Of a stretch of DNA of 64,000 nt, positions 16,301 to 49,400 are shown one piece after another. A model generated the notes under the pieces. That model was not told the origin of the DNA. It did not search any database and saw only the letters and a list, made by a program, of their open reading frames with translations. The stretch comes from Echinarachnius parma (Eukaryota; Echinodermata; Echinoidea; Clypeasteroida; Echinarachniidae): NCBI GenBank assembly GCA_037951105.1, contig JBAMJV010010658.1, positions 1 to 64,000 of the forward strand, read 5' to 3'. The stretch's first letter is position 1. Every line of letters begins with the position of its first letter. The position numbers and the translations under genes were made by a program.

Positions 16301-19300
16301 TATGAGTCTATGGGGATTTCAGAATCTTGAAGTGAACAGGTTAATTTTGCATTCATTCATGACGATATATTTATATAAAATGCTGATCAATAAAACGCTG
16401 GAATGCTTTAAGTCTTTCAGTCTCATCGTGGTTTTAATTAAAGATAGCAAAAATCAACTCTTCAAACTACAAAGATCATTGAAACAGAAAAACCCACTCA
16501 ATTTACATGTAAATAAAATTCAAATAAAGGCATATATCTGTACTAGTAGCATGTAGCCTGGTGAGCAAATTATGCTAAATAAACCTTTTTTGCTAAAATG
16601 ATTATTGGTTCAACCTGTTTTTGTTTGTGTTTTTTTGGGGGGAGGGGGAGGGGGTAAATAACTCATTTAATCATTAATTTTCAAGTAGGTCATAATCAGG
16701 AATCTGGTCTTGGTCAGAATTTGTTAATAAGGGCAAGACAACATAAAGGGGGTAAAAGAGCAATGAAAATGGAAGTAACACAACCTTATCTCTTCTCAAA
16801 TATGTGACGTCTTCAAAGTAAACACTAGTTGTTTGTCAAGTTTCTAGACACATCACAGTGCATAGGATGTTTATGTGAAACCAGAAATTTATCACGCAAA
16901 GGCCTCATGTTGTCAAGTGTATCTTGAAACAGTCCATACAATAACATCTTTTTCTTTTTTCATGCGGAGGAAATAAAATGTGAAACCAGTCATTTGTCAA
17001 GTGTTTTTTAAAACTGTCCATACAACAATTTATGTTCCTTTTGTCATGCTTTCATGACTATATTTGTAATAGCAATGTACAAATGCACTGAGGCTATATG
17101 GAAGTTTTAGTTTAATGAATGTCAGTTTCAATTTCCAAAGACATCTTTGATTTTGTTTGTTGATAAGTAGCATCAGTTGTCCATTTAATTAGATTGCATT
17201 TCACAGACATCATAATTGTATGCAACTAAGAACTCACATTTTTACAAATAGTACAAATCCCATAAATGTAAATGAAAGAATGTGATCAACTTGATCAGAT
17301 TTGCTAAACAGCAACTGCAACAACCACAAGGCAAACAAACTACATTAATATGTGAGCCTAGTATCAGACGTAAATTATCATTAAAGGGGAAACAAACTGT
17401 GGCATGTTCGCTTACTGTTACTGATAAGTGCATAATTCATGTCACTTCTAATCGTATATTTCCTCTTGGGTATCAATAATTATGGAAATAATTAATGTTT
17501 TTGAAACTACTATTATCTGTTTTACTGAACACTGTAGGCTGCCATGTTTTTCCAACTGTACCATATGAAACGTCATCTGACCTTGCACTAACAAAAGCAG
17601 GTTACATAACCACTGACATTGCAGCAAATTCTACAACAGTAGTTACATTACCTGCTTTTGTTAGTGCACTGTCAGATGACGTTTCTGCGGTACTGTTAAA
17701 AAACATGGCAGCCTCCAGTGGTAAGTCAAAACAGTTGATAGTGGTTTCAAAAACATTGATTATTTCGTTCCCCTTTAACAAGGCCTTCTTTTACGATACA
17801 TTTTAAGTATCAAGTAATAAATACATTAACAACATTTTGCTTTTCATCACTCTACATCTAGAACATACATGTCTATGATGGAAGTAAATGTGCTCTTTGG
17901 CCCCCTAAAAGAAAAGCTTTTGGGAAAGTCCAAGGTATTTGTTCCCAAGGGGGTGAATTTTCATCTTCACCCATCGAGTGAAACTTGATGTCATTTTAAA
18001 GCTAAGATATTGAATTTTAATAATTTGAAAACAAAAATTAAAAACTTGTCTCCAATAAGTAGAAACAATCAAATATATTTGCATAAAATGTAAATCACCG
18101 TAACACGTGGGACATCTGAATTAAAGACAAATTAAATCATATTTAAAATGCTTGTAATGATTATTTACTTATTATTGGCTTGACCTGATGTCATTACCAG
18201 AAGGAAGTTGGATTATGATTTTCAGCTTGTTATCTCATTCAATATGCAAATAAGATGCGTTCCAAAATTAGCATGTCCCACGCGTTACATTTTTACATCT
18301 TATTATTTCGATTACTCGTTAATCAAAAGGTTTATTTTTCTGGAACTCTACAAAGTTCTAATTTACCTTGGGGGACATCCATAACATAGCAACAAAAAGT
18401 TATCACATTTACCTAATTAGCATAAATCAATAATTAGACTTTGTCACGCGTGGGACATTTTGTAACGCGTGGGACAATCTATACAGTAAAGCATTTGGGT
18501 TTTTGAAAATCTTGTTTTGGCCTATTGGCTTATTTACGATCATTCCGTAACACACGAGGATATTTGCCTGCCACTTTACAAGTTTTTTCTTTGAAGTCTT
18601 GCGCAACTTTTGAGACCAAATTCATGACAAACAACTGTACCCTTACAAAGGCACATGACTTTTTCGAAGTGGAAGTCAATCTGGAAATTGCATAATTTTG
18701 TGATTTATGTACAAATCCTATGGAAAAAAGTGTTTTTTTATAGGATTGATTATAACTCAATAATTTCTCATTTAAATCACTGCAAATAATTAATATTAGG
18801 ACAAATATTGTTTGACAGTGGTGAATAATTGATTTCATAAAAAAAAAATGTAAAAATGGAAGTTGAAAAACAAAGAAATACATAAATAAAATATTAGTTT
18901 TTGCAACTTTTGTTTTTAAATGTTGTTAGGAAATGTCATAAAGAACATTTATGCATAAGATGAGCATTTTCCAACCTCAAATTCTTGATATATCTATAAT
19001 AAGGGCAAATTGGGGGTGGGCCTATGTAAAACACATGGTAGAAAAATGTCCCACGCGTTACAATACAATTTTTTTTTTAATTGACGATGTGTGAAACTCT
19101 AAAGTTTTGAGATGATGAAATTTCATATTCTGGTAGAGCACAAGATGCACATTAAGACCATACCAAGCATGTTTTGATATTGTATATAAATTCAGAGGAA
19201 TTCACATTCAAAGTCAACGTTAAAAAATACCAACTTTTTCTGGTCCCACGCGTTACGCTATCAAAAAGTCGCATAAATTATTAATGCATGGTGGATTTCA

Positions 19301-21478
19301 AAATTTGTTTTGGCATTTGATAGAATTTGATCCAAAGAATCTAAAATGTAAAACAAATTGGTGTTTCAATATTTCTTATAAGAGTAAGCTCTCTTTTTCG
19401 CTCTGATGTCCCACGCGTTACAGCTACAAAATAGCTTGGACTTGCCCTTTTAGGGAGAGCCCTGAAGAGCCTTACCTGGTTGAGGTATTTGCCAGCAAAG
19501 AAGGTGGTATATCCAGCTTTCTTCACGTACGTCGCAATGGTCTTCTTCTCTGGGCCCTGTTGCCAGGCAACGCTGCTGCAGTTGCCATCAATGGAGTTGT
19601 TCATGGCGCCATGGTTGTGGATGTAGTTCCCTGTCAGGATGCTAGACCGACTCGGACAACACAGGGGGCTGCTTGTAAACTGTGGAAGCAAATTCATTGC
19701 CACATCATCAACATGTGCAGGACATAAAGCAATGGCCCAGGTGCTAATGTCCACAATAAACTGTTATTTGCCGACTAGAAACTCTTGTATTACCCAACAA
19801 AGAATTGAGCTACAAGTACAAGGCACTGTTGATTGTGGTTATTCACGGGTACCCGAAGTTTAAATAATTCTGCCAGTCAGAAACTCATTTTCATAATTTA
19901 TTTAAGCTTCTTCTTTCTTGTTGCGATGCTCCCAGAAAAAAGGCAAGATTGAAGTGCAATGCCGCGAGCACCAGCAGGAGATCAGTTGGAGTGGGTCGTA
20001 GACCATCATGTTGCCTAATTCTTCAGAAATGCTATTAAAATCTAGTCTAAATAAACAACCATCTTTTAAATTAAAATTAAAATACACATTTTGTGACTCA
20101 CCATATTATTGAATGTCATTCCTTGTTTCCCCAGCAGACTGAGGGTGTTGGCCATTGGGGTCTGAAAAAAAAAAAAAAACACACACACACCTAAAATTAA
20201 AACTGTAAATCATAAATGTGCTAGATCTGCAAGCGTATTCAGCACAGTGCTAGTGCCTATCTAGTATCTTGTTCACTACATTTAAATTATAATACATGTC
20301 CAATTAGATTCTAGATCTAGTTAAATACTTCATAAATGGCAAAATATTTCTTAAATAGTTGCAGAGCAGGGCAGGTCCAAGCTTTTGTCCCCTCTGGGGG
20401 TCAAATTTCATCTTTATGTATATATAACAAACTATACATCATTTTAAAGCTGAAACTATGAATTTTATGAATCTGATAAAAAAAATAAAAATTTATCAAA
20501 ATACGAAGAATGCCAAGGTCACGAACTACGATTTGTATTAATTAGCGTGACGTACGGGACATTACATTTTTATTTTTGTATCTCATTTGAATTATCTTTT
20601 TCAAATTAAATATCTCAGGACATGTAGACCATCATGCTAGAAAATAGGAAAAAAATATAAAAACTTTCAAAATTAATTAATTATGCAAATGAGGTAGGGT
20701 CCAAAGTGTGATGTCCCGTACGTCACAATTTTGAACATAATTTGTTTAATTTTAACTACGAAAATAATTATTTTTTTTTAAAGATATTCTAGGAAGTTCT
20801 AATTTAGATGAATACCTAACAAAAATAGGTTTAACAAAAATTTAAAAAATTCTGTGTTGATTACATAATCAAATTAAGAAATGTGACGTACGGGACAAGT
20901 GTGTGACGTACGGGACAACCCCATATAAAACCACTGCAAGATGTGAAAAAGAAAATGACCAAAAGGTATACAGGGATATATGAACATTCCAACTGGGTCC
21001 CTTCTAGGAATTTACTTGTACTACTGAATTTGATGTAATTACCGTAAAACTCCGTGTATAAGACGCACTTTTTTTCTGTCGGAAAATTTTCAAAGTGGGG
21101 GGTGCGTCTTGTACACAGGTACAGCAACAAAAAAAAATTTGAATTTTTGTTGGGACACCCTGTATTCATGTTTAATGCATATTACACTGGTCTAGGGCAT
21201 GACAAGAGCTTGATATAAAGGGGAACATTTATCAAAATATACCTTTTTTCTACATAAATGATAGTGGTTAGCAAAACAAAATGCAAGTTTTTAAGCAGTA
21301 ACACTGCTACTAATTGAATATTCAGATATTCATGAGTAGCAGCACTCATTTAATATTCAATTTTCTAAACAGTGGTTCTACATTTTTCTCAACAAAAAAG
21401 TTATTAATGAATTTAGTGTTTTGCATATTTAATGAGCATTGCTACCTCATGAATATATGTATATTCATGAAAAAAAAT

Positions 21479-21510
<32 letters not shown>

Positions 21511-23571
21511 GATTTTTTTTTTTTTTTTTTTTTAGAAAGTTGGGGGTGCGTTTTATACACGAGTGCGACTTATACACGGAGTTTTACGGTAGTCTTCAAG
21601 CCAGACCCCTGGTATTATCAACTTTGGTATTTTGCCAGTTGATGTCCCAAACATTGGCAGGATGCAAATATGTAAATCATAATAGTGTACTTGTTCCTGG
21701 AATGAGTCTAATGAAATGATATGGTAGTAGATGCACCATAAGCTGGCTTTTACAACTCATAGATGCTGCAAGCAAGAATAATTTTTTGACGGGGGTGTGC
21801 CGCACGGAACTCTGAAATGGGGGTCTGAAGAGCTAACTACAAGCACAAAATATAGGGTCTTTGGAGCTAGAAAATCCCTTAAATGCACAAAATATCGGGT
21901 CTTTGGAGCTACAAAATCCCTCAAACGCACAAAATATAGGGTCTTTGGAGCTACAAAATCCCTGAAAGGGGAGTGAAGGGGTCTAAGGAGCAGACTTAAA
22001 CTACAAAATACATAGACTCGGAGATTCCAAATACCTACGGAAACCCTCAAAAAGGCTCAAATTGTGGTCCAAGGACTAAGGAGCCGAACTAGAAGAAGAA
22101 TAATGGATTTGGCGCTACTCAAATACAAAGCCAAGTCATTCCGGGGGTCTATGGAGCCAAACTAGAAGAAGAATAAAGGATTGTCGCTACTCAACTACCT
22201 AGTCTTTTAAGCGGCACATACCCGTCTTACATTATACATGAGTGCCCCCTGTGTTTCAATCAAGTTTAAATAAAAGTTTTCAAGTTCATCTTCTTCATTA
22301 ATTTTCATTTAAATACATTAAGCAATGTTGAATGGAATGGATGAAAGAAATGAGAAAAGAAGCATGACTGCACATGATAGATGTGTGTATGAATGTAATT
22401 CAAATTTTGTTTCTTTATTAAAGTAATATTTTTATTGATTTACCTCATAAATTAACTCAGAGAATATTAAGTAATGGTCAGAGGATTTAATTGGGTTCTA
22501 AAACACTCTAATTGTCACTGATTTAAGTTAAAATTGTTCACATTGAACAAATTTTGACGAAAATTCTTCATTTCAATGAATTTTCCCATAGGGAAAAGTT
22601 GTCCCGTACGTCACATACACACATTTATGTTTTGGTATATTACATAACAACGAAAGGTCAGAAAAATATGGTAATACTTGTGATTAATGCTTTATTCCAT
22701 AATGAATTAAGATATCAGTACCATAAATCTCATAACTTAATAAATTCAGAGAACTTTTACGATGAACTTATTTTTGAAAAAGTCAGAAATTCTCTGGTCC
22801 CGTACGTCACGCAGCACATTAATTACATTAAAAATTAATTTAAGAATTGGTCAGAACTAAAACTTTCCACAAATGAACTAGCCCATAATAGCCACAGACT
22901 CATACCAAAAGATAGCCATATAAATAATTTCATCCATTGTTATTTCTTGTTTAAAGTCTCTGAATGTCCCGTACGTCACAATCCAAATAGCTTGGACCTG
23001 CCCAGCAGTGATCTTTTCACTTTCATACAGCACAATCTAAAATCTGAAAGTGAATTTGAAAGAAAAGGTGATTAAAGGATGACAAGGTGGCAATCCATTC
23101 CGAGACATGCCCATGAGGAAAGCCATTAATTACTTGAACTTGAGTGGTTTTTACCAAGATATCTTTTCAGATATTATTTGGACACCGCTTTCTGCATTTT
23201 GATTTATTTTGGCAGACAAAATTACAAAAGTAACTAACTGAGCTCTTCACGACATACACTCAGTCTCAGATAAACACCAGAAATGTGAATCATTATAGAC
23301 AAAATTTTAAAACTGAACTCACAATAGCTCCCATTGTAACGTCCTGATCATCCGTGAGAATAAACACAATATTCGGTTTATCAATATTCGCTTGCTGCTT
23401 CTTTTCATAGGGCGGAACCCCATTGTTGCCCACCGGGCGGTTCGGGGTAGGTTTGGTGCCGTGTGCCGCTGGAGATGAAAGCGTCGCTGCAGTGTCGAGG
23501 AACAGAAATATTACGACGAAAAGCCCACCGATCGTGGCTCTTTTCAGTCCTAAATTTGATGATCCTGCCAT
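4532..23571 (-). CDS. GNS: N-acetylglucosamine-6-sulfatase, whole gene (12 exon positions)
   Basis: The enzyme removes 6-sulfate from N-acetylglucosamine ends of heparan and keratan sulfate in the lysosome. Exons in transcript order: 23323-23571, 20102-20161, 19476-19679, 16138-16203, 15131-15229, 14075-14242, 13188-13270, 12646-12764, 11902-12104, then 11047-11157 or 8539-8676, then 7794-7904 or 6775-6885, then 4532-4720. All joins use GT/AG and keep phase, giving 562 aa (or 553 with the shorter tenth exon), against about 552 aa for human GNS as recalled. Seen in the protein: an N-terminal hydrophobic signal, metal-binding TDDQD at about 73-77, the formylglycine signature CCPSR at 110-114, GKYLN at about 166-170, SDNG at about 343-346 and DKRQLYEFD at about 357-365. 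DNG and [12 protein letters not shown] favour GNS over the extracellular SULF enzymes. The duplicated exons and ghost copies are listed separately. Confidence 0.92.
5109..5201. mobile_element. TTAACCCATT MITE, copy 3
   Basis: TTAACCCATTCAGGACTGGT to GTCCTCAATGGGTTAA, inside GNS intron sequence upstream of the last exon. Confidence 0.75.
5669..6211. mobile_element. TTAAAGGGGTAGT TIR MITE
   Basis: TTAAAGGGGTAGTTTAGTTT and AAAACTGTACTACCCCTTTA then A. It lies in the GNS intron between exons 11b and 12. Confidence 0.75.
6215..6890 (-). repeat. tandem array of GNS exon 11b with flanking intron
   Basis: Three head-to-tail units of unequal length: an intact unit with exon 11b (6698-6890), a decayed unit (6456-6697, exon echo at about 6522-6608) and an older partial unit (about 6320-6455). 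Shared landmarks are CCCCTGTAGAT, TTTATCCTNGGCACAA, CAAGTCATCNAATTTATTC and AACATAAAAATATGT. The decayed units have lost the reading frame. Confidence 0.75.
6775..6885 (-). CDS. GNS: GNS alternative exon 11b
   Basis: A 111-nt phase-0 exon coding [20 protein letters not shown] and YCNFQDDE, with CTTAG acceptor and GTACTT donor. It is slightly closer to human GNS (CFP-CVCED--NNTY-CVRT) than 11a. Two decayed copies follow at 6456-6697 and 6320-6455. Use of one exon or the other is inferred; including both would also keep frame. Confidence 0.8.
7794..7904 (-). CDS. GNS: GNS alternative exon 11a
   Basis: A 111-nt phase-0 exon coding [18 protein letters not shown] and YCEFSDSE, with ATTCAG and GTACAA borders. 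It matches human CFPDCVCEDAYNNTYACV. It has exactly the length and phase of exon 11b and agrees with it at 20 of 37 residues. Confidence 0.82.
8335..8447 (-). pseudogene. ghost copy of GNS exon 10b
   Basis: Minus-strand reading gives QSSSKGK, then [14 protein letters not shown], then GYEGC, aligning with [19 protein letters not shown] and GYTGC of exon 10b. The tryptophan of PWR is replaced by a TAG stop and a second TAG follows HA, so it cannot serve as a coding exon. Confidence 0.8.
8539..8676 (-). CDS. GNS: GNS alternative exon 10b
   Basis: A 138-nt open exon (46 aa), phase 0 on both sides, coding [20 protein letters not shown] and ending [10 protein letters not shown], with TGCCAG before it and GTAAGC after it. 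It follows exon 9 in frame just as exon 10a does. A decayed copy lies downstream at 8335-8447. Confidence 0.8.
8690..9180 (+). repeat. purine-rich (GA) tract of about 490 bp
   Basis: The plus strand is mostly A and G (GAGGGAGGATAGG, GAGAAAGGAGGG, AAGGGAGGGAGACAG). Open frames across it reflect skewed composition only. It lies in the intron just upstream of exon 10b. Confidence 0.7.
9181..10540. other. intron stretch with no recognised feature
   Basis: AT-rich intron between GNS exons 10a and 10b. Apart from the poly(A) run I see nothing to annotate. Confidence 0.5.
10291..10329 (+). repeat. poly(A) run
   Basis: About 39 A with no LINE or SINE body recognisable on its 5' side. Possibly a worn retroposon tail or simple slippage. 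Confidence 0.7.
10541..11041. mobile_element. foldback element beside GNS exon 10a
   Basis: The left arm ATCTCAAGATGGCAGTCAAG, CCTTCATACTC, AACTCTGTTCCATTT is mirrored at 10970-11041 (AAATGGAACAGAGTTGGC, GAGTATGAGGGGTTA, GGCCATCTTGGAT). The right arm overlaps the exon 10a array landmark. Confidence 0.6.
11019..11540 (-). repeat. three-unit tandem array of GNS exon 10a
   Basis: The landmark GATAG(A/T)GTC(A/G)GCCA occurs at 11019, 11211 and 11405 (192 and 194 bp apart). The first unit holds intact exon 10a. The second (exon echo about 11239-11345) keeps CCAATGTGGGC and the TTATGTGTAAGACAT donor but has lost frame. The third (about 11430-11530) is more worn. Confidence 0.75.
11047..11157 (-). 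CDS. GNS: GNS alternative exon 10a
   Basis: A 111-nt open exon, phase 0 on both sides, coding [20 protein letters not shown] and ending GCKGTIGLC, between a CCATAG acceptor and a GTAAGA donor. It aligns with human [20 protein letters not shown] and with exon 10b (shared VPWR, VLIEH, GE). It keeps candidate N-glycosylation sites NRT and NTT that 10b lacks. It is the first unit of a three-unit tandem array (spacing 192 and 194 bp) whose other two units have decayed. Using 10a gives 553 aa. Mutually exclusive use with 10b is inferred. Confidence 0.75.
11902..12104 (-). CDS. GNS: GNS exon 9
   Basis: A 203-nt exon coding [30 protein letters not shown] and [13 protein letters not shown], ending [11 protein letters not shown], phase 0. 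It holds the conserved active-site lysine near residue 358. Acceptor TTTTAG, donor GTTAGT. Two alternative exons can follow in frame. Confidence 0.9.
12646..12764 (-). CDS. GNS: GNS exon 8: SDNG metal site
   Basis: A 119-nt exon coding [15 protein letters not shown] and [13 protein letters not shown]. The DNG (about residues 344-346) is the second metal-binding motif of sulfatases. DNG rather than DHG fits GNS. Acceptor CCACAG, donor GTGAGA. Confidence 0.92.
12974..13075. mobile_element. short foldback related to the TTAAAGGGG elements
   Basis: TACTGTTACTGATAAGTGC, then AATTCATGTCACTA, is followed by the inverted TAGTGACAGG, then AATTATGCATATATCAGTA. The outer part matches the ends of the larger elements at 17381 and 40993, so this is probably an internally deleted relative. 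Confidence 0.6.
13188..13270 (-). CDS. GNS: GNS exon 7
   Basis: An 83-nt exon coding [16 protein letters not shown] and [11 protein letters not shown], ending two bases into the next codon. Acceptor CCTAG, donor GTCAGT. The join rebuilds FRKRWRTLL, as in human FRKRWQTLL. Confidence 0.9.
13840..14062 (-). pseudogene. two ghost copies of the 3' half of GNS exon 6
   Basis: 13967-14062 repeats [20 protein letters not shown] and GPSFNVH almost exactly but has no acceptor and lacks the GT donor. 13840-13920 is older ([13 protein letters not shown], then a stop before FNVH). Both lie downstream of the real exon in the intron. Confidence 0.85.
14075..14242 (-). CDS. GNS: GNS exon 6
   Basis: A 168-nt phase-0 exon (56 aa) containing [20 protein letters not shown] and [12 protein letters not shown], with CTTCAG before it and GTAAGT after it. 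Human GNS has [20 protein letters not shown] here. The 3' half is duplicated twice downstream as ghosts. Confidence 0.9.
14267..14549. mobile_element. small TIR element (MITE-like) in GNS intron 5
   Basis: The left end TAAGGCCAAAAAA, then GATTGGAGTAACGGGC, is mirrored by the right end GCGGGTTACGCCAATCC, then CATGGCCTAA. TA flanks are compatible with a mariner-type target duplication. There is no coding capacity. Confidence 0.6.
14594..14784. repeat. near-identical 96-bp tandem duplication in a GNS intron
   Basis: Two adjacent copies beginning TTCAATATCACCCCTGAAAG and ending AGCATATCCTAG differ at only one or two bases, so the duplication is recent. It contains no exon sequence that I can see. 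Confidence 0.9.
15131..15229 (-). CDS. GNS: GNS exon 5
   Basis: A 99-nt phase-0 exon (33 aa) with [13 protein letters not shown] and [14 protein letters not shown], very close to the same stretch of human GNS. Acceptor CTCTAG, donor GTAAGT. Remnants of its 5' end recur just downstream in the intron at 15300-15555. Confidence 0.9.
15300..15555 (-). pseudogene. remnants of GNS exon 5 acceptor region
   Basis: The exon 5 start and its upstream intron (AATTATATTGCTAGAGGAG, then AACTATTGAACACTGTAAAATA) recur as GAAATTGAATTGCTGTGAG near 15320-15340 and as CAAATTATATTGATGC plus AACTATTAAACACTGTAAAATA near 15490-15550. These are short decayed copies. Confidence 0.55.
16138..16203 (-). CDS. GNS: GNS exon 4
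   Basis: A 66-nt phase-0 exon coding YGSPKVGG and [12 protein letters not shown], matching YGAPDAGG--HVPLGW in human GNS. It is bordered by TTAG and GTATGT. Confidence 0.88.
17381..17778. mobile_element. TTAAAGGGG foldback MITE
   Basis: It begins TTAAAGGGGAAAC and ends GTTCCCCTTTAA. Interior arms are inverted around AACAAAAGCAGGTTAC / ACCTGCTTTTGTT and CTGCCATGTTTTT / AAAACATGGCAG. The TTAA ends fit a TTAA-targeting superfamily such as piggyBac or Kolobok. It has no open frame. Confidence 0.75.
17922..19447. mobile_element. GGGC-TIR DNA element 1 with GTCCCACGCGTTAC array
   Basis: The right end ATAGCTTGGACTTGCCC is the inverse of the left GGGAAAGTCCAAGGTATTT, with TTTT as a possible 4-bp target duplication. 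Seven copies of GTCCCACGCGTTAC (one or two with single changes) lie at 18100(-), 18275(+), 18443(-), 18462(-), 19048(+), 19243(+) and 19408(+), with a worn eighth at about 18546(-). No transposase frame is seen. It inserted in GNS intron 3 close to exon 3. Layout matches elements at 20369 and 45620. Confidence 0.85.
19476..19679 (-). CDS. GNS: GNS exon 3: catalytic formylglycine site
   Basis: A 204-nt phase-0 exon (68 aa). It holds [15 protein letters not shown], whose first cysteine (residue 110) is the one converted to formylglycine in this family, followed by NYIHNHG and ending FFAGKYLNQ. Borders are CCACAG acceptor and GTAAGG donor. A DNA element ends at 19447, only 28 bp beyond the donor. 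Confidence 0.93.
20102..20161 (-). CDS. GNS: GNS exon 2
   Basis: This is a 60-nt phase-0 exon coding [20 protein letters not shown], with TTTCAG before it and GTGAGT after it. It matches the TP-L---G--GMTF stretch between the metal site and the catalytic cysteine of human GNS. Confidence 0.9.
21042..21589. mobile_element. TA-flanked TIR MITE nested in element 2
   Basis: Left end CCGTAAAACTCCGTGTATAA and right end TTATACACGGAGTTTTACGG are inverted copies flanked by TA, as in mariner-type insertions. The inside holds two long A/T runs near 21485-21533 and no frame. Confidence 0.85.
21757..22230. repeat. 43-bp tandem repeat and related phrases
   Basis: The unit GCACAAAATATAGGGTCTTT then GGAGCTACAAAATCCCT occurs three times at about 21843-21968. 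Looser phrases (GGGGTCTAAGGAGC, GGGTCTATGGAGCC) follow to 22160. No gene is seen here. Confidence 0.8.
23323..23571 (-). CDS. GNS: GNS exon 1: start codon, signal peptide, first metal-binding Asp pair
   Basis: The ATG at 23571 opens an 83-codon exon ending ATGGGAGCTATT before a GTGAGT donor, phase 0. Residues about 14-27 ([12 protein letters not shown]) form a hydrophobic core fitting a signal peptide or anchor. [11 protein letters not shown] near the end is the first sulfatase motif and supplies calcium ligands at about residues 74-75. Confidence 0.9.
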
Positions 23572-27610: not shown

Positions 27611-28624
27611 GTAGGCCTATACTATTAGGGTAATCTTAACATGTATATAATAATTCTCTTTATACACTTTATTCGTATATAAGAAGGCTAATTAATTTTT
27701 GTAAATAAAGTATACGTTATCATATATTGTATTATGTTATCCTATTATGCCCCTCCCCACCCCGTTTGATCCCCAAATACAATTGAAATGTGTTATATAA
27801 TCCATTAACTTCAGAAGGTTTTTCCTAAAGTGATATTTGAGACTTCATTTTATCATTGTAAGATTATTTTGACTGATGTGAGTGATATTTTCCTAGAAAA
27901 AATACTTTGTGATAAACATGCATGGACACTGGTGTACGATTTTATCACTATAGCTATTGATTTTGACTACAATCGAAAATGTTCCGGAACGCTTTTGAAT
28001 TTAATAATGAATACCTCCATAATAAGGAATATAATTTATTAGACAAATGAACACCCAATTCCCCAATTCATTCTTCTGTTGCCATATCCAAACAACAATG
28101 TTAAAGAGAAGTGTACAAGTTTCAAATGATTTGGGTTGAATTTGAGAGAGTTAATGGATCACTTTAACATTATTAATGCGTACATGTGCAGTTGCATTTT
28201 AATTTTTTTTTAAATAGTTTTAATTCATTAATAACCAGATAAGCGAACGAGAAAGGAACATACATTAATTCAGTCTCTTCGCTCCATTGACATAGCCACA
28301 AATCACGCCACTACATGCGGTAAAGCATAATTGTATTACAATAACATTGTCTTAAATTATATCATAATCATTTCATTTAAATAAATATACACACACAACA
28401 TACAAACATTAACATAAACACATACAAAAAAGAAATAAAGAGACTTGTAGTCATTGATTTCGTTTCCAATCATTTTATTTTTGACATATATTGTCGCCAT
28501 CAATCGTATTTATTCCAGAACCAAGAAAAAGTCGAATATTATTTTGTTTCAACCTAATGCGTATTTTAAAAAAACGCCGTGCTCACATTACATACAATAT
28601 ACTTCAACATTGATTAGGTAATAC

Positions 28625-28962
28625 CCCAGCTAGCCACCTGACGTCGGGCCGATGTCGGAAGTTGGTTGGCGGATGTCGGCATATCGCCGTTGGCTCGAGG
28701 TTAAAATGTCCGCCAGCCCAACATCGTCACGACGTCATTTTTGTGATATATTGGCATAACGTCATTTTCCGACAATGGCCCAACATCATGTCATGAGATG
28801 ATGTTGGGCCATTGTCGGAAAATGACGTTATGCCAATATATCACAAAAATGACGTCGTGACGATGTTGGGCTGGCGGACATTTTAACCTCGAGCCAACGG
28901 CGATATGTCGACATCCGCCAACCAACTTCCGACATCGGCCCGACGTCAGGTGGCTAGCTGGG
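28625..28962. mobile_element. near-perfect 338-bp palindrome (young foldback element)
   Basis: Two arms of about 165 bp, starting CCCAGCTAGCCACCTGACGT and mirrored exactly at the other end, differ by about one base (GTCGGCATATC against GTCGACATATC). Centre is near 28793. It is rich in CpG and ACGTC compared with its AT-rich surroundings. Near identity of the arms implies a recent insertion or gene conversion between them. Confidence 0.9.
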
Positions 28963-29235
28963 ACCATACCTCTTTGATTATACAAGCGATCCGATGTAAC
29001 AGTTGGTATAGTTGCAATTTTGTAATGATCTTGGTTTAGCTAGGAGGGGCGCACGGGAGGCGTGTGCCCCCCCATTAATTTGAAGAAAAAAGCAATACAA
29101 ATATAGCTATAGGGTAAACTTTACAAGACTAGACAATAACAGAGCCATATATATTATACAGCTCTGGACAATAAATACAAAGAGCGCCCCCACCTCCAAT
29201 CCTATAGGACCACGCAAAATCATTTGTAAATCACT

Positions 29236-29263
29236 GACCTCTACTAGTAGAGGTCAGTGTTTG
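29236..29263. mobile_element. 28-bp perfect palindrome between 9-bp direct repeats
   Basis: The sequence reads TTTGTAAAT, then CACTGACCTCTACT and its exact inverse AGTAGAGGTCAGTG, then TTTGTAAAT. The 8-9 bp direct repeat and the CACTG/CAGTG ends look like a minimal hAT-type insertion reduced to its termini. Confidence 0.55.
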
Positions 29264-29290
29264 TAAATTGGAGACAAATAGGCGTACCCA

Positions 29291-29327
29291 GGGGGGGGGG
29301 GGGGGGTTCAACCCCCCCCCCCCCCCC
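29291..29327. repeat. G16-TTCAA-C16 hairpin
   Basis: Sixteen G, a five-base spacer and sixteen C, forming a perfect hairpin on either strand. Length may be affected by assembly, since homopolymers are error-prone. Confidence 0.8.
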
Positions 29328-36700: not shown

Positions 36701-39700
36701 ACCAAGTAGATGGTAGGCCACGTAGGACCAGGCGCGCCGGAAGCAGTTTTGGATTGGTGGGGCAAAATTCCAAGGGCTCTCACAATTTTTGTGTGTAGGG
36801 GCTCATGCCCAACCACACTCTGGGAGCTTTTGCATTTTCGGACTTGAAATTGTACAATCTGGTGCATACCTAGATAGAAAATTCGGCTGTATTTGGGAAA
36901 GCGTGATATGATTTGATCGACCAGAAAGTTTTAATATATTTTTCACGTAGAAAACAAATAATTGACACACGAATAAATATGTACCCCCAAACACACACAC
37001 AACAACATAAACCATAATTATGCAACATTATGTCTGATCCAACAACATACAGCCAATAATGAGTCCCGAGGGAGCAAAGCACCTGAGGGCTGGGGCAAGG
37101 AGGGATGGGGAGGGTTTGGGAGGGGTAGATCCCCCTCCTACGGTAAGAAAGATTTTGCATTTATGGACTTGAAATTGTGCAATCTGGTGCATACCTAGAT
37201 AGGAAATTCGGGCTTAAGATTAACTGATTCTGGGAAAGCGTGTCATGATTTGATATATTTTCACGAAGAAAACAAATTAATTGACGCACTAATAAATATG
37301 CACCCAAACTCACACATAAATATTGTATTTAGTGTCTATACACAGTTCCAACATAAACCATATGGCGCATGTATGATCCAACAACATGGCCTACAGCCAA
37401 TAATGAATCCCGAGGAAGCGAAGCGACCGAGGGCTTGGGCATAGCCAGAGGGGGAGGGTTTGGGAGGGGCTATCCCCTTCCCACGGGGAAAATGTTGCAT
37501 TTATATACTTGAAATGGTGCAATTTGGTGCACGCGTTAAACAAAAAAAGAATAAAATGTCTATGCTCTCATCAGATGTTTACAATAAACTGAGCTAATCT
37601 GTTCGCGCGCGAAGCCCTAACCCTAATCCTAACCAACCCTAACCCTAACCCTAACCCTAACCCACTCCTTTTCCCTCTCTTTTTTGGGAGGGGGGGGGGG
37701 GCAAAATTGCGTTTTGCCCCCCACTTTTTGGATTGGGGGGCGGCCGCCTCCCTGCCCCCCCCCCCCCCCCCCACTTCCGGCGCCTATGCGTAGGGCAGTA
37801 GTCGATCGGTCCATTGCTTTTGATGATCCTCGAGATTCAGAATCTTCTCGAAGGGCCTCTGGACAGTTTATCGGTTCTACATGCATGTATTGTATCATCA
37901 TTGTTGTAAGTGTCACATTAATGATTTATCTATGGACGATCAATTAGAAAATAAAATCAACTACGTACTGTGTCCGTTCGGTCCTATAGGGTCCAGACCA
38001 AATAGAGGGTAGACAACGTATGACAGTGGTCCATAGGAATTGCCTCTGACTGCCGAGATTCAGAAGATTCTCGAAGAGCCTCCGACGGTCTAAATACTTT
38101 GCATTACCGGTACCACATTGGAACTAATATTAATGAAAGGTCAATTAAAATAATAACGTACTGAGGTGTCCGTTCGGTCCGATGAAGCTTCTCGTAGAGC
38201 CTCCGGTGGTTTGGTTATATTGTATTATCATTGTATTATCAAAGTGTCACATTTAGGAATTGTCAATGCACAATATATTAGATAATAAGATCATATACGT
38301 ACTCACGTGTCCGTTGGGTCCGATGGAGTCCAGACCAAGTAGAGGGTATGTCACCTAGGACAGAGGTCCGCAGGTCCATTTTTTCTAATTGCTGTCGAGA
38401 TTCAGAATCTTCTCGAAGAGCCACCAGTATTTTTGGTTATATTAGGTCAAGGAAAATATTAAAATACTTACTGAGGTGTCCGTTGGGTCCGATGGAGTCT
38501 AGACCAAGTAGAGGATAGGCCACGTAGGACAGAGGTCCGTAGGTCCATTGCTTCTGACTGCCGAGATCAAGCAGCTTCTCGAAGAGCTGACATCGACCGA
38601 GGCAGAATGAGAGCTCTAGCGGGGTCTGGCCCGCCTCGTTGCGGATTTCGATGCTGGCTGGCTGGATGGAGTGCCAGATCACGTGCGACAGCATCTTCTG
38701 TTTATTGATGAAAAAATATGAACATTCATTAAATATTTGATAGAACCCATGAACGTATTGTAAAAGATATAACAAAATGTATATTGTCAAATATTTCAAA
38801 AAGGTAAGTGTATATTTTCCACTTACGAACATTACGTTGATATAATAAAGTCATCAGTTGTGTAAAATTCATGCTTGAATCAATTAAACTAAGACATCGA
38901 CAAAATGCTAGTCTGTCGATGCAGAATCAATCATCAAATCATGAAATCAATCTATATTTCGTTCTTATCTAGGGTTACACCAAATCGTATAGATTTTGCC
39001 CATTTCCGGGTCCAATTTACATATATTTTGGTATAACACCTATTTTCTATTGAACCCAGCCTAATACACATGAACACGTGCCCCTCCACTTCCCCTCAAT
39101 ATGACAAAACAATAGAAACATAGGGGTAACAATGACTAGTTAAGAGTGCCCCTAATAATTAACGTTCTCCCAATCCGTCCGACCAAGCTACGCCATTGAG
39201 ATCCGATATAATTCCTAACTCGCACCAGCTGGTTGTGGATGACCACCATGTGGAGCACGGTGTTGCCGTACGAGTCCTGGTCGTCATGGTTCACCTTCCC
39301 CCTGGTCGTCACCTGCCCTCGTCGCTCCACCCTCAAGCTCTCCTCGATCAGGAAGTCGTAGATGGCCTTGTCACCGATGCTGGCGGCGAAGGCCAGGGGA
39401 AACTCCCCGTAGTACGCCCGCCCCTCACCCGTGATCTCCTGCCCCATGTCTGCTATACCTTGTCGAGAATGACACAATTGGTTTGATTTGATTTAAATGT
39501 ATTTTCATATTTCGCAATCACAAATTTATTCAAATATGAAGTAAACACACAAAGCAAGACATTCGTGACAACAGAATACACTCTCAGTTGATTTAATTTG
39601 CTATTTAATTCTGTTTGACATTTATTTGGTATTACTTAATAGTTGATGTATTGCATCTATTGATGTTTTTATGAAGAATGTGAATAAACTGAAATGAAAA

Positions 39701-40399: not shown

Positions 40400-40438
<39 letters not shown>

Positions 40439-43400
40439 TGTCGCCATAATTTTCAATGTCGCCCATTATCACTCACTAGTAATACTAACACAACCACCAT
40501 TATCATAATAATCACCATCATCATCATTGTTGCTCATAGACATAATTAAGCAATAACAATTATTGTTTTCTACACTCTACGTTCTTATTATTGCTATCCT
40601 CAAATATTGTATAATGAAAATGATAATCAGGAACACAATCATCGACATCAATTTTGTTTAGTGGTTGTAACCGTACCGTAGTAATGTGCATCCTCATAGA
40701 CGTCAAGGCATAGCTTCGGGAAGAGGTTGAGGAGGTGGTGGGCGATGTCGATGTGGACCTCGGTGTTGTTGAGGAAGCACAGGTGCAGGGACGTCTCCCC
40801 GACCTCGCCCCGCTGGTTGATGTCCCAGCAAATTTGTCGAGCCTCGTACGTGCAGTCGAACTCCGATAGGAACCAGCGATCGAGCTCCCTCATCAACTCC
40901 TTGTTCGTACGACTGCGCTCGGGCTAGAATGTCAATGTACAGAGCAGTTTCAAGATGCTGAACCATAGTAGCCAGTGTTATGTATCATCTGATTAAAGGG
41001 GAGCCCAACGCTGGCATATTTACTTACTGTTACTGATAAGTGCATAATTCCAGTCACTTCTAGTCGTATATTTCCTCTTGGGTATCACTAATAAAGGAAA
41101 TAATCAATGTTTTACAAACTAATATCAACTTTTTGATAGACCACTGGAGGCTGCCATGTTTTTTCAACTGTACCATATGAACGTCATCTGACCTTTCACC
41201 AACAAAAGCGGGTTACGTAACCACTGACATAGCAGCAGATTCAACAACAGCGTTTGTATAATCCTCTTTTTTTAGTGCACGCTTAGATGCGCTCAGATGA
41301 CGGTACCGATTGAAAACGTGACAGACCCCCAGTGGTCAGTCAAAACAGTTAATAGTGGTTTTTAAAAAACATCGATTATATGAGTGATACCCAAAAGGAA
41401 ATATACGACTAGGGCCCCGTTGCAGAAAGGGATACAATCGGTTGTAAGTCAGAAAATTCGCGCGTTTCAACCAATCAGATTTGCGCATTTAGAACACATG
41501 ATCTGAATTACAAACATGACAATGATTAATTTTTACTTACAATCAATCGATTGTATCTCTCTCTGCAGCGGGGTCCAGGAGTATTAGGAAGAATGCACTT
41601 ATCAGTAAAAGTAAGCGAACATTCCAGTGTATCATTTCCTTTTAAATGCAATTATAAGAAACAATAATAATTCAGATTTTAAAAACATGTTAGATGAAAC
41701 ATGCGACATGGCATATCTCATTGAAGATAAAGTTACATTTGCCAAAAGTAGCATCCATCTCAATTTATGTAGGCCACACTTCTACTAAAGAAGTGAAAAC
41801 TATACAGAAGAGGCTAGTCCGCTGGTGACTCCGTGCATTTAATTTTCCATTCTTCATTCTAATAGAAAAGTAAAACAAAATCAAGATCGCAGTTTTTGGT
41901 GTTTGTTATTAACAACGCCTCTAGCATTTTCACGGTGATATATCCTGCTTCTTAATATTGTCAGCAACAGGTTTGACATTACCTGACACACTAGAAGCAT
42001 TGGCCTACGGCATTATTAAAACGGTTCAAGACGTTTCAAGTAGTGCATTTAGGGGAGGACAAAATGCAGTAGGATCATTAGGGCTTGAGATATTTTTTGC
42101 TGGGGGTGGTGGTGGGGGTGGGGGGAATTAAGAACCTTTGTGCCTACCCCCCTTTTTATCGCCAACCATATTGTATGGGAAATGAGGGATAACAGGGGAA
42201 ATTACACAATGATGATACAATCAAACATGTGACCACCTAAGGGTGACCGTAGAAAATTGGCCACTACAAACAGGTGACATCTACATACAGGTTCACTAAT
42301 AATGTTTGTCACTGGAAGGGATCACTTTTGGTGGCCATTATAGGCAGGTTGGCTGCTGTCGACAGGTGATCACGAATACAGTTTTGATTGTTTTTTTTAT
42401 TTGGATGTGTGGATATTTATAATGTAATCGATCTCTCTCGTTGGCCACATCTTTACCCCCCTCCCCCCCCCCCCCCACCTTCGTTCCCCACCCCGAGGTC
42501 TAGGTTGAGTACCCTACCGGATCTAAATGCTTATACAGCACGACATTCATGCTACTTTTGAGAAGTGTATTATAATACCCTGAACAATTATCACTCCATC
42601 TATCGGATATCCGTAGACGCATGCGATCTAAATAATGCATAACCTCATTTCCGAAGCGGCGAAGTTTGCGTGATATTTATGTGATCACTGTCATTATATA
42701 GACATCACAAGCAGTAAGTCGATAGTACATTACATAGAGCGGAGGGAAGTGTGATTACATCTTTATTTATGTTTTTTGTAGACTGCTGAAAATTGCTTAT
42801 CCACTATAAAGAATTTTGTAATAAAATGAGTAAACGTAAGCCGAGCTATCGAATCTAGCAGATCCTTCGTCTGGGATGAATGAAAAAAAGTTATTGTAAA
42901 TATTTGCAGTTCCTGTTCTTTTCCTCTCTTTCTCTCTCTTTCCTTAACTCTCATTGAATTGTTCAAATGGCGTCGAAATTATTTGTTCTAAATTGGAAGC
43001 GTTAATATAATATTTGTCACCAATTTTAATTTAGTGTACATAATATGGAATAATTTATGAAATTATAATTTCTCTATTTCGCTTTCTCCCCTTTCTCTAT
43101 CGCTTTCCCTATCAAGTGAGGATGAGGGCGTCTTTTTAGCTGAGTCATGTTTTAATTTCACTCCGTTTTCTCTTAAGTTCGATCCTGATTTTCACCTTTA
43201 GATATGTTTTGGAACAGTGTGGTGTATTATTTGTGATATTGTGAACTTGTGAACCCTACCATCACCAGTATGCAACAACAAGCCAGCCCCGCCACCAGAC
43301 CAACAACGCTCACTTCCCAACACCCACACCTCCAATATTCTATCTTCCGCATACTAATCTACAAGCTTCGACAGCACCAATACCTTTCCATCCATCACAC

Positions 43401-46400
43401 ACTACAGCAGGAATAAACACCCGACACCACGACGAATTTCCACCACTACCTACCCAACATCACCCAAATCAACCAGCCCCACCTGGCACTCGTGCTCCTC
43501 CACCACGTTCGCAGTCTCACCATCCCCAACCAGCACCCCCTGGAACATCATCTCCCCAGCAATACCAGCGTTTACCACATGCTTCCACATACAAATCATA
43601 TGCAACAGTCACCCAAACCGTACCGCATCTCCACCCAGCAATCTCTACCCTGTCTACACCTTCATGCTGTTTCTGTGGCGAGCAAAACCATCGATCAAAT
43701 TCATGCAGACATGGTATGTACTTACAATGCCGTTATTGCATGACTCTGGGCCATAAAGAAAAAATGTGCCCTTATTAGGCCAAGAAGAGAGAGCCCCAAA
43801 TTATAATATGTATACTCAAGAATTTGATCTCCATAATGAAACAATTACTTCAGTTGATATTGACTCGAATTTGTCTTTGAATGACAATTCTTCTCTCTCA
43901 AACTCTCTTTCGGATAATATTGATGATGACTCTAGTACATCTAGTTCAGTAGATGAAGATCCAATTTTAATTCAAATTTTAAATCAACTTAATAATTACA
44001 AAGGTTTAAAAATAGCTCATTTAAATGTGCGTAGCCTTTATCCCAAAATAGATGAAATACGTGTTGTTGTTATTAGTCTTCACTTAGATGTCATGTGCAT
44101 TTCTGAAACTTGGTTAAATGAAAGTATTAGTGACGGTGAAATTGCTATTGATGGTTATTCTATTGTAAGAAAAGACAGAGAAAATCAAAGAGGAGGAGGT
44201 GTTTGTTTATATTATACAAATACATTATGTGCAATAAACAGAAATGATATTATTGTTAGTTTTAATATTGAAGCACTATTACTGGAAATTAAATGTAATA
44301 AAACTAATGTGCTAATTACTTGTGTATATCGCCCTCCTTCCTCTGGAGCTGAATTTTATGAAACTTTGTATTCATTACTTGAAAGTCTCTTTATGGAGAA
44401 TAAGGAATTGATAATGCTTGGTGATTTTAATGTTGATTATACAACTTCCAGTAGCACAAACATTACTTTAATTGAATCAATATTTTCTTTAAAACAACTT
44501 ATAACCAAACCTACCCGTATTACGATGTCTTCTTCCACTTGCATTGATCTTATTTTCACATCAATGCCTGATAATCATATAGTTACCGATGTAGGTGAAA
44601 TCTCCTTGAGTGATCATTATATGATATATACTTGTGTTGATTGTGATACAAAAAATAATACTCATCGTACTGTTCGATGTAGAGACTTTAATCATTTTGA
44701 TAATGACGCTTTTATTGAAGAAGTACGCAACTGTGATATTTTGATTAATATTATGCACTATTTTGATGAAAACTCTATCTCTCATAATGATATTTGGCTT
44801 TTATGGAAACAAGCATTTTTGAATATCTGTGATAAATATGCTCCAATTAAATTGATACGTGTAAAAAGCAGATATAGCCCTTGGATCACTCCAGACATTA
44901 TTAAGTTGATACACAAACGTGATTATTTAAAAGCAAAAGCTAAAAACAACCCACCTCTATTTAAACAATATCAAAAAATAAGAAACAAAGTGACAAATGT
45001 AATTAAATATGCCAAAGGGAGTTATTCAACATTAGTTTGTGATAAATATAAAGGTTATCCAAAGAAATTATGGAAAGAACTACATAAGGCCACTGGAAAT
45101 TCTAAATTTGTCCAAGACACTCAATGTGATATTGGCCCCGATGATTTGAATGATTATTTTGTTACAGTTGGTCAAGATATTTCCGATTCTTTTGCTAATG
45201 CCCCTCTTACGTGGAAAAATCCTAAATGTGTATACGAATTTAAATTTCATGATTTTGTTGCTGATGATGTACTTAAATTGTTGAAACAATTATCTAATGA
45301 TAGCAACCTTGATATTTTAGATATTGATTGTAAACTTTTGAAACTTGTCGCACCTTTTTTGGCTGAATCTATTACTGCATTATTCAATTATTCAATTCAT
45401 ACTGGATTTATTTTTGATGACTTAAAATATGCTAAGGTCACCCCAATTTATAAAGGAAAAGGGCATAAAGATACTAGTTCTAATTATCGGCCTATATCTG
45501 TTGTTTCCCATATAGCTAAGATTTTAGAAAAGTTGGTACAGACTCAATTTCATTCATATTTATTGACTCATGATATGATTACTTGTGAACAATCAGCCTT
45601 TATGAAAAATAATTCCACAGGGCAATTCCACGCCAAAGTGGACATTTGACCAAAAAATTTACAAGCATTTTTATGATACAAATTTGGTATCAAATCAAAG
45701 CTTAAATTCTATATTTTTGGAATTCAATGAGAAAATTTTAGTTTTACATAATTTTAGTTGTTTTTTTATAATAACTTTATAACCATAATTGAACCCCACA
45801 AATTTGACATTTTTGTGAAAAAGTGTTTTGATCCTGTGTTTGTTTTATATTTCCCCAGTTAAGCCTAAAAACCATTATTCTGACTCCTGAGATATGACCA
45901 TTTCGTAAAATAGTAAATTTTTATGATTTATTTGATTTGTTATGCTTCAATGACTTCTTATTTTCAGCCTATGAAAATGTCCTTCCGTTACCGAAAAATC
46001 AATATTTTTAATTTTGTGGCTCACATAATTGTTAGAGAGCAGACCAATCTTCAGTGCAAAGCAAGTTCAAGTAGGCCTTCCCATTGCTAACAATTGTATT
46101 ACTCATTGTTTCTTCGTTAATTAATAAATAACAAAAGAAAATGTCCTTCCGTTACCATACACATGGTAACAGATGGACAAGGTACCTCATATTACATATT
46201 ATGACAAAATTTATGTTCAAAAATTTGTCTCTCATATATGAAAACCCAAAATAATGAGACAATACCTGCAATGGCCAGCTATCAGTGGCGTAGCGTGGTC
46301 AGACTAGTAATTTTCTGTGTTTCAACCAATCAGATTTGTGCATTTAGAACATTTGATCTGGCTCACAATTGATTTTATCCCTTTCTGCAACAGGGCCCTT

Positions 46401-49400
46401 GTACCATGATGCCATTTGTCTGGATTTCTATTGTATGGGGATTAGTAGGTCTATTTAACTGTGGTGAGCCAGGGTGTGAATAGGCTCTGATCATGACTTT
46501 GAATAGGTTTTTTTGTATACAATACACCCCTATAGAATTCTTGGACATGGGTGTAGGTCTAAAATAATTACATTTTACATGAAATTTGCAAACTAAAAAC
46601 AAGGCTGTAGAAAAAGCAAGAAATAACATATCTCCAATTCTTTCATATGTTGTAGTAATTATATCAAGCCAAGATTTAAGCAAAAAAAAATATTTTTTTA
46701 AAGGTGATTTGACATGGAATGACCCTACTGTGTCATATCATACATTATAGTCCATTATGTCCTTCCGTTACCGAACATTGGTCCGCTTTGTGTGAAATAA
46801 CTCAAATATCTGTGGACAAATTTTAATCAAAGAACAAGTAAATTCTTCTTAACCCTTCAGAGAATGAAATGTGTACCCTTAAAATATTTTGTATTATTTA
46901 ATATCACAGAGTTTTAGTTAAAACTGATTTGATAACAAAACCTCGTCCATTTTAGTGTCCTTCCGTTACCGACCTCATTTGTATGCATATTCAATATTGT
47001 GCGGAGATTTAAAAAAATAAAAATTATGGGACCTTAAAACTGTATGTTTTGGAAGTATTGTTAGCAAAATAGACTGTTCTAACAACACAAGTATTTAAAA
47101 ATGTCTTTCTTAAAGTTGACAATTTGTGTCTGAGTGTCCTTCCGTTACCATGGATTGACCATGAATAAGAGCAATTGGAGCATGAAATATAGTAAGAAAA
47201 AAATAGAAATGTAAATGCTTGTGATGTCCATATGCTATCTATGATACAAACTCATTTTAGACCACAAAAGAGATGTTTCCTTCTCATAAATGGTCTTTAC
47301 ATTTCAAAATTAATTTTATTGTACAATTCCAATAGACTTTTCAGAGGTCCTTCCGTTACCGTCCTTCCGTTACCGAACACTGGAGTAATTAATTTCTCAT
47401 AATTAATATACCAATGTAGATATTTTTCTTAAAAGGTGGTGTTATACTCTGTGAACATAAGGAAATTGACTAGTAGCCAACTTAACATGATAAACCTCGT
47501 AACTTCACGAAGATTGGGTCATAACTAAAAAAATTGAAAATCCATGTCCATTTTGGCGTCCTTCCGTTACCGGCCTCATTAGTGTCCATATCTAATTTAC
47601 ATAATGCGGTCAAAATTTTAGAAATAGTGGAAATCAAAGGTGTCCCAACAAGGATCAAAGACATGCCATTTAGAATAAAAAATCAAAAGCAGGATCCTGG
47701 AATTATTTGATTGAAGTTCCAAAATTGTGTCTGAATGTCCTTCCGTTACCGTGGAATTGCCCCACAGTAACTAGCTTACATCGAGTAGTAGATGATTGGT
47801 ATGATTCTATTAATGCCCATGAAGTAGTGGGTGTGTGCTTCCTTGATATTTCTAAATGCTTTGATACAATTTCCCATGATTTATTGATTCTTAAATTGCA
47901 ACATTATGGTTTAAATAGCACTGAATTAAAATGGTTTCAGAGTTACTTGACTAATAGAAAGCAAATTGTAAATTTGAATGGTACATTATCGCAGGCCAAA
48001 TCAGTAACTATTGGAATCCCTCAAGGCGGTGTTCTAGGACCCGACCTATTTGTATTATTTATAAATGATATTACCCAAAGTGTTAATTCTTGTACATGTA
48101 ATATATTTGCTGATGACGTTGCAATCTATGCTTCCGGTGACAATATGAATGTTATTCAATCCTATTTACAAAAAGGTATAAATGAAATTAATAAATGGTA
48201 CATAAATAATAGATTAAAAATTAATGTTGATAAGACAAATGTAATGGTTATAAGATCCCGTCATACTAGATTATTATCTAAAGATCTTAATATTACACTT
48301 AATGGTAACCAAATTCAACAAGTAGATTGTGTAAAGTATTTAGGAGTATATGTTGAATGCAACTTATTATGGGATAATCATGTTAAGCACTTATGTAAAA
48401 GTCTCTCATATAAGTTATTTTCTTTGAGAAGATTAAGTACATCATTCGATACACAAATTTTAAATGTTCTTTATAAAACGACAATATTACCATGTATAGA
48501 TTATGCATGTTCCGTATGTGGAAATTGTTCTGTAAAAAATAGAGATTTAATTTATCGTTTACAAAAAAGAGCTGCACGGATAGTATCTAAGAAATTTAAC
48601 CCCATGGAAGTTGATAGTAATGAACTGATAAGAAATTTGAAATGGCAAAGTTTTGAAACACGTAGAGATTATTTTTTAAATGTTCTGATGTATAAATGTA
48701 TTCATGGTGACGCGCCAGAAAGATTATGTAATGAAATTGAAATGTACTTTGATCGTCACGGCTTTAATACACGTAACGCTGATTCGTTAAACGTTGTAAT
48801 ACCGAAACCCCAAATTGAATTATTCAAACAGTCATTCAAATATTCTGGAGCAAATATATGGAATGATTTATTAATTGAACAACAAAATCTTCCTTCACTC
48901 AATTTGTTTAAAGTTCACTATAAGCGTCGCCTTTTTTGAGGTCAACTTCCCCTGTGCTATTTATTTGGGATGCAATTAGTCAGTATGTTATGTATTTCTG
49001 TACTTCGTAATTTATTGTGCACCATGCTATATGTATATTTTATTATATTTTGGTATTCAAATACACCTACAGCTGCTCAGGTGGACTTTTTTTTGGAGTT
49101 TGATATATTTGGTAATATTCAATTATTGTATTGGCAGTATTGAACGTTCCAGTTCCCATTATATAAACATGTGTACCACGATGCATGGGTTGATTGTCTT
49201 GTGGGAGTATGATGGGTGTGTGGTGGGTGTGTCAGGAGGTGTTGATTGTGCGGTGATAGAATGCATTGATGTGAACGATTGTATTGTGTCCCTGTGTGTA
49301 CGTGTTTTAGTGAGTGCACTATGGTCTGGTGTGCTTTGGATGACGTGCTTTGTGGAACATATGTATGTATATGGGTATATTCGTTGGAACGCGTTTGTGG

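Follow-up and report, generated by a model that had tools for sequence, protein, structure and literature searches.

Transposons in which a short repeated motif differs between related elements have been described in plants. The Jozin CACTA elements of four Chenopodium species carry a 12-bp motif that reads TATTTGTAACTA, TATTTGTAACGG, TATTTGCGTCAC, and again TATTTGCGTCAC, in 19, 19, 23, and 21 copies, respectively, and the copies within one element are 83 to 100% similar (PMC8978399). In soybean, six positions distinguish the motif of the CACTA element Tgm1 from the Tgmt* family motif, and co-evolution of the motif with its binding protein has been raised; the subterminal repeats of En/Spm are recognized by TNPA (PMC2613891). 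The motifs of VANDAL elements vary between related elements, motifs and VANC proteins differ between families, and VANC6 sets the precedent of an element-encoded protein acting on such repeats (PMC5735166). In Hermes, the BED domain of the transposase binds subterminal repeats (PMC10368747). Here we describe three elements, E1, E2, and E3, from positions 1 to 64,000 of contig JBAMJV010010658.1 (the window, i.e., the whole 64-kb stretch analyzed), which share a layout of subterminal 14-bp sites while each carries a motif of its own. An earlier note on this DNA knew of no described family with this property, a view that the Jozin, soybean CACTA, and VANDAL elements contradict.

E1, E2, and E3 are transposon insertions with 4-bp target duplications (Table 1), since they combine inverted ends, flanking duplications, and, for E3, a disrupted reading frame that reopens without the element. 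The 13-bp inverted ends begin with GGGC, as the earlier note had it, in E2, in E3, and on the right of E1; the left end of E1 is the one exception, reading GGGAAAGTCCAAG (GGGA) and not GGGCAAG. The duplications TTTT, AGCA, and CACA, also given in that note, are perfect in all three elements. When the window was scanned for GGG...CCC pairs separated by 200 to 5,000 bp, complementary at 11 or more of the 13 end bases and flanked by a perfect 4-bp duplication, four pairs were returned, namely, the three elements and a low-complexity pair at 16748-17905. E3 is inserted in the endonuclease/reverse transcriptase open reading frame (ORF) of a long interspersed nuclear element (LINE), with endonuclease domain matches to its left and a reverse transcriptase match to its right; if E3 and one CACA are removed, the LINE frame is open over the junction and both flanking ORFs are in phase. 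Approximately 28 bp from the right edge of E1, a sulfatase-like exon on the minus strand has what appears by eye to be its splice donor.

Each element contains a private 14-bp motif, present at 7 sites in E1, 7 in E2, and 10 in E3. The E1 motif GTCCCACGCGTTAC is exact at five of seven sites and carries one mismatch at the other two, the E2 motif GTCCCGTACGTCAC is exact at all seven, and the E3 motif GTCCTTCCGTTACC is exact at nine of ten, with two mismatches at the tenth. No private-motif site with up to two mismatches was found elsewhere in the window; at three mismatches, three sites appear outside the elements (19522, 30657, and 58658) and one more within E2 (21797). The core GTCCNNNNCGTYAC (GTCC-N4-CGTYAC) has 12 matches in the window and the core GTCCNNNCGTYAC (GTCC-N3-CGTYAC) has 9, compared with a mean of 0.04 in 100 shuffles in either case. 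E1 and E2 each have four plus-strand and three minus-strand sites, E3 nine and one. The sites are dispersed, with spacings of mostly 164 to 211 bp, apart from close pairs 14 to 22 bp apart, one of which is head to tail (47347 and 47361 in E3). Motif counts and the end scan thus bear out the common layout, the private motif per element, and the 7 to 10 nearly exact copies that the earlier note had proposed; its offsets and site order stand as well, with one correction for E3, whose third left site lies at 545 instead of 544.

The ends of E1 and E2 are homologous, and their sites changed together. With motifs masked and terminal repeats kept, alignment of the left ends (556 and 550 bp) gave 317/461 identical positions (z 11.5), and alignment of the right ends (420 bp) gave 225/351 (z 4.2); the left segments without the 13-bp left repeat scored z 8.7 and 4.3. 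In the 150 bp immediately interior to the innermost sites, no homology was detected (z 0.8 and -2.2), so that the sites span the conserved ends. In all seven same-position pairs, E1 and E2 disagree at motif columns 6, 7, 8, and 12, in each case by a transition. Columns 6 to 8 do not vary within E1 or within E2, and column 12 varies at a single E1 site; nine of the other ten columns are identical throughout both elements, and column 9 has a single E1 exception. The statement that four to five central bases differ between conserved outer ones can accordingly be made exact for E1 and E2, whose changed columns are these four, whereas the E3 motif aligns best by eye with a spacer one base shorter (GTCC-TTC-CGTTAC). 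Under independent drift at the spacer rate, ~6e-6 uniformly differing columns would be expected, which establishes the concerted change.

Gene conversion between the sites of one element could homogenize a motif without any change of partner, and near-uniformity within elements combined with divergence between them is the usual signature of concerted evolution; in VANDAL21, repeat units have often diverged jointly within tandem arrays (PMC5735166). In the present elements, however, conversion tracts would need to stop at the motif edges, across sites that are mostly 164 to 211 bp apart and, in E1 and E2, lie in both orientations. Nor are the flanks homogenized: over 10 bp on each side, identity is 0.44 for same-position E1/E2 sites, 0.34 for different-position sites, 0.33 within E1, and 0.32 within E2, with permutation p values of 0.117, 0.059, 0.023, 0.024, and 0.061 at 3, 5, 8, 10, and 15 bp. 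Site flanks track position and not element, which speaks moderately against conversion, and we regard that explanation as decidedly unlikely. The pattern suggests that the sites changed one base at a time while sharing a common constraint. Because same-position flanks are more alike between elements than flanks are within an element, a shift in the specificity of a partner protein, the other mechanism named in the earlier note, fits better than conversion.

E3 resembles an E1-like grid with a second right end, a feature that goes beyond the earlier note. Outside the motifs, the inner and outer right ends are identical at 205/347 positions (59%; z 6.7), whereas their three motif pairs agree at 42/42 bases, for which the chance at spacer identity is 2.5e-10. 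Since the inner terminus has decayed and its sites are intact, the inner-end motifs seem to have outlived the use of that end as a terminus. The putative original 1541-bp unit, which would close in the decayed terminus, has sites at offsets 359, 523, 545, 1139, 1337, and 1516, compared with 353, 521, 540, 1126, 1321, and 1486 in E1. It matches the E1 grid within 30 bp at these six sites, and only 18 of 1,000,000 uniform placements were as close to any six of the seven E1 sites.

We consider it probable, though well short of certain, that a single loose family of cut-and-paste DNA transposons with GGGC...GCCC ends and 4-bp duplications, in what is apparently an animal genome, includes E1, E2, and, with less certainty, E3 as non-autonomous members, and that their sites are bound by a protein of an autonomous partner with shifted specificity. 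The element ends (left, ~550 bp; right, ~420 bp) would hold a grid of 14-bp subterminal sites, most likely bound by the transposase of that partner or by an accessory protein of the TNPA or VANC kind. Each source lineage may have had a separate partner whose DNA-binding specificity shifted, and all sites of that lineage would have followed one base at a time, since ends carrying mismatched sites were mobilized less well. A private motif per lineage would then arise because the protein changes specificity and only matching ends are mobilized, so that selection, rather than conversion, would keep the sites of an element alike. The elements combine short ends for cleavage, a separate subterminal site array, and a core that differs between elements; by analogy, this is the layout of transposons whose ends bind a second domain or a second protein, such as the BED domain of Hermes or TNPA. 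Should the pattern extend across the genome, one would expect a separate partner protein for every motif class and a failure of swaps between classes.

Several observations weigh against this explanation. The window contains only three copies, and neither an autonomous copy nor a transposase was seen in it; 4 of the 43 element ORFs of at least 45 amino acids were scanned, and none of them reached a Pfam cut-off. Without the terminal repeat, the right segments of E1 and E2 are weak singly (z 2.4 and 1.0), and the flank test is only moderate (p 0.02 to 0.12 for seven pairs). E3 has no counterpart of the 178 site, and its site at 523 is inverted relative to the one in E1 and E2. Spacer homology between E1 and E3 is undetectable (total z 1.1 with the inner and 0.7 with the outer right end; 33/200 and 51/200 shuffles reached the observed score), and that between E2 and E3 is weak (z 2.6 and 3.2; 2/200 and 1/200 shuffles). 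The common descent of E3 therefore rests on grid, ends, and outer motif bases. The 1541-bp unit was picked after the data had been seen, and circular shifts of the whole of E3 gave p values of 0.002 to 0.012 against E1 and 0.008 to 0.059 against E2 at tolerances of 5 to 20 bp; the outcome of the grid test depends on the unit and tolerance chosen. E3 could also be unrelated to E1 and E2 and owe its like ends and grid to convergence or chance, as the spacer comparisons and these p values would allow, but it shares with them the end type (GGGCA..TCCA), the duplication length, the outer motif bases, and six of seven grid positions, which agree with E1 and with E2 to within 15 bp, and its 1541-bp unit matches the E1 grid over the full length. 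An unrelated E3 appears unlikely, although readily conceivable, and would be compatible with the partner-protein explanation for E1 and E2.

Duplication of a site-bearing unit as the origin of the grid was not shown by 324 local comparisons of inter-site segments (with the absent 178 site of E3 replaced by the position at the expected offset), but stays conceivable, as the test is insensitive: the homologous right ends of E3 are absent from its 22 listed results. The top within-element results are self-inverted stretches (z up to 6.3), and the first segment of E2 and E3 gave z 5.0 (score 21 versus a shuffle maximum of 19).

The element might instead be driven or sheltered by a host transcription factor or insulator binding the sites, the lineages having adopted different host factors. 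Such a role would suit the nucleosome-scale spacing, and the minus strand of the E2 motif contains TGACGTA, which resembles a cAMP response element half-site. A switch of host factor would, however, be expected to alter whole motifs and positions, whereas the outer GTCC and most of CGTYAC are kept and the center differs at the same columns in all sites; we therefore find this explanation improbable. Other elements are known to be in arms races with sequence-specific host repressors, and the sites could differ because each lineage escaped such a repressor. This is very improbable, since escape needs loss and not 7 to 9 near-identical new copies, and the motifs are identical where the spacers diverge in the right ends of E3; a host repressor, which the earlier note had named alongside a transposase, would be the less likely partner.

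Outside the motifs, the observed/expected ratio of CpG is 0.43 in E1, 0.48 in E2, and 0.23 in E3, compared with 0.68 for the window as a whole, and every private motif carries one or two CpGs; one of the two E1 variant sites is a C-to-T change at CpG. This pattern would fit both methylation of the elements and a site function related to methylation, and is proof of neither. More speculatively, and with doubt on our side, the grid may be a standing nucleoprotein scaffold whose geometry outlasts its sequence, the letters being swapped together at a change of partner so that each lineage holds a private key. The scaffold would have one site per ~164 to 211 bp at both ends, i.e., at nucleosome scale. 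That the array might also serve beyond end cleavage, e.g., in chromatin opening or anti-silencing, is suggested by the intact sites beside the decayed terminus of E3 and by CpG-bearing sites in CpG-poor elements; it would then be an animal counterpart of VANC or TNPA acting on a non-tandem, position-locked array. If it extends across the genome, the pattern would record in nature how a DNA-binding protein changed specificity with at least seven sites following in place, and the grid layout would make it testable how such protein-DNA pairs shift jointly without loss of function.

Table 1. Elements, terminal repeats, and motif sites in the window
Feature	Positions	Strand	Details
E1	17922..19447		1526 bp; target duplication TTTT, 17918-17921 / 19448-19451
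E1 left terminal inverted repeat	17922..17934	+	GGGAAAGTCCAAG; one mismatch vs right end
E1 right terminal inverted repeat	19435..19447	-	GGGCAAGTCCAAG (on -); 12/13 matching left end
E1 site 1	18100..18113	-	GTCCCACGTGTTAC; 1 mismatch
E1 site 2	18275..18288	+	GTCCCACGCGTTAC
E1 site 3	18443..18456	-	GTCCCACGCGTGAC; 1 mismatch
E1 site 4	18462..18475	-	exact
E1 site 5	19048..19061	+	exact
E1 site 6	19243..19256	+	exact
E1 site 7	19408..19421	+	exact
E2	20369..23003		2635 bp; target duplication AGCA, 20365-20368 / 23004-23007
E2 ends			GGGCAGGTCCAAG on both sides; 13/13 matching
E2 site 1	20547..20560	-	GTCCCGTACGTCAC
E2 site 2	20713..20726	+	exact
E2 site 3	20883..20896	-	exact
E2 site 4	20903..20916	-	exact
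E2 site 5	22601..22614	+	exact
E2 site 6	22797..22810	+	exact
E2 site 7	22966..22979	+	exact
E3	45620..47762		2143 bp; target duplication CACA, 45616-45619 / 47763-47766
E3 ends			GGGCAATTCCACG on both sides; 13/13 matching
E3 inferred original unit	45620..47160		1541 bp; closing in decayed terminus ATGGATTGACC
E3 inner right end	46751..47160		decayed; homologous to 47352-47762; element positions 1132-1541
E3 outer right end	47352..47762		element positions 1733-2143
E3 site	45979..45992	+	GTCCTTCCGTTACC
E3 site	46143..46156	+	exact
E3 site	46165..46178	-	GTCCATCTGTTACC; 2 mismatches
E3 site	46759..46772	+	exact; inner right end
E3 site	46957..46970	+	exact; inner right end
E3 site	47136..47149	+	exact; inner right end
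E3 site	47347..47360	+	exact; extra copy in tandem with 47361 site
E3 site	47361..47374	+	exact; outer right end
E3 site	47558..47571	+	exact; outer right end
E3 site	47737..47750	+	exact; outer right end

Further features were noted within and around the elements. The core of E2 harbors a nested 552-bp stretch with inverted ends (21040-21591, TACCGTAAAACTCC...) that looks like a TA-type miniature inverted-repeat transposable element, and the core of E3 includes a dispersed repeat (46288-46377, CAACCAATCAGATTTG...) with relatives at 444-521, 41433-41510, and 63414-63491. An acyltransferase match in an E3 ORF (E 0.0017; 17.9 bits versus a cut-off of 31) was taken as chance. The LINE ORF hit by E3 (43757-45649) has a 404-amino-acid public relative (P0001) with 99% identity over 62% of the query; the LINE may be young, or the relative may simply come from the same organism. 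Among the domain matches in the window, one to a sulfatase exceeds the Pfam cut-off; there are also two LINE reverse transcriptases and an ORF read as a transient receptor potential (TRP)-like channel, whose Ion_trans and PKD_channel matches fall below their cut-offs. Direct repeats of 205 bp, up to 99% identical (30627-31461), overlap a minus-strand ORF read as part of a TRP-like channel and are possibly a tandem exon duplication; three ~98-bp repeats of an exon-like stretch (37958-38561; 60 to 87% identical to the reference copy) perhaps belong to the same gene. A near-perfect palindrome without spacer occupies 28616-28971 (178-nt arms, 97% complementary). The CAT/CAC-rich repetitive region at 54462-55822 holds two copies of a 300-nt segment (54469-54768 and 55118-55417), which lie 649 bp apart and are 100% identical, and a satellite-like array with a ~16-bp unit (GGAATAACGAACCTTC) runs from 63721 to the window end at 64000.

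Pattern scans of public sequence collections gave no matches to the end and motif patterns in three of three viral contig scans and in the first prokaryotic genome contig scan; this absence says little about an animal element because the collections are viral and prokaryotic. In the second genome contig scan, a generic double-site pattern returned 34 stretches, all bacterial or archaeal, of which 30 have two to three core matches and four have more (L001 and L027 with 6, L025 with 5, and L028 with 4). Their core matches are arranged head to tail with periods of ~17 to 36 bp; the exceptions are one additional match each in L014, L019, L026, and L028 and, in L002, one match 46 bp off. Judged on layout, ends aside, the 34 stretches were dismissed as unrelated, as none has the dispersed two-orientation arrangement.

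We assign E1 to E3 to no superfamily, having compared their 4-bp duplications and GGG...CCC ends with those of several. The target duplication is 8 bp in hAT elements, TTAA in piggyBac, Kolobok, and Sola3, 4 bp in Chapaev, and 3 to 4 bp in Academ; Ginger1 ends are of the TG...CA type, and Chapaev ends begin with CAC. In all three elements the duplication is 4 bp, instead of the 8 bp of hAT and of the P element (PMC10983969), and TTTT, AGCA, and CACA are not TTAA. The 4-bp length is common to E1 to E3, Sola2 (PMC3627910), and Ginger1 (PMC10045372). Examples of Sola2 use AT-rich targets such as AWWT; the length fits, but AGCA and CACA are not AT-only. For Ginger1, the length likewise fits, but the ends do not.

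Among the closest known systems are CACTA/En-Spm elements (Jozin, PMC8978399; Tgm, PMC2613891), which also combine terminal repeats with a 12- to 20-bp subterminal motif in direct and inverted copies, the motif being near-uniform within an element, different between related elements, and partly shared. They differ in having ~19 to 28 closely spaced motif copies, compared with 7 to 10 dispersed sites mostly 164 to 211 bp apart, and in ending with CACTA and duplicating 3 bp; E1 to E3 moreover reside in an apparently animal host and have no transposase seen, autonomous CACTA copies being marked by one of the Tnp2/Transposase_21 type. Arabidopsis VANDAL elements (PMC5735166) likewise have short repeated motifs in non-coding DNA that differ between families along with an element-encoded protein, but these often form tandem repeats that gain and lose copies, whereas the sites of E1 to E3 are dispersed at conserved positions, and no VANC-like gene, of which DUF1985/DUF287 would be the mark, was seen. 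Hermes, a hAT element (PMC10368747), shares the subterminal repeats, bound there by a separate BED domain, but these are short AAGT motifs clustered near the tips. Among the titles and abstracts listed in the literature searches, with Repbase outside the scope, none described an animal family that joins GGGC ends and 4-bp duplications to dispersed private sites and a grid outlasting its spacer. Private motifs as such are already known in plants; what is unusual here is their turnover in place, on a dispersed and conserved grid, in an apparently animal family.

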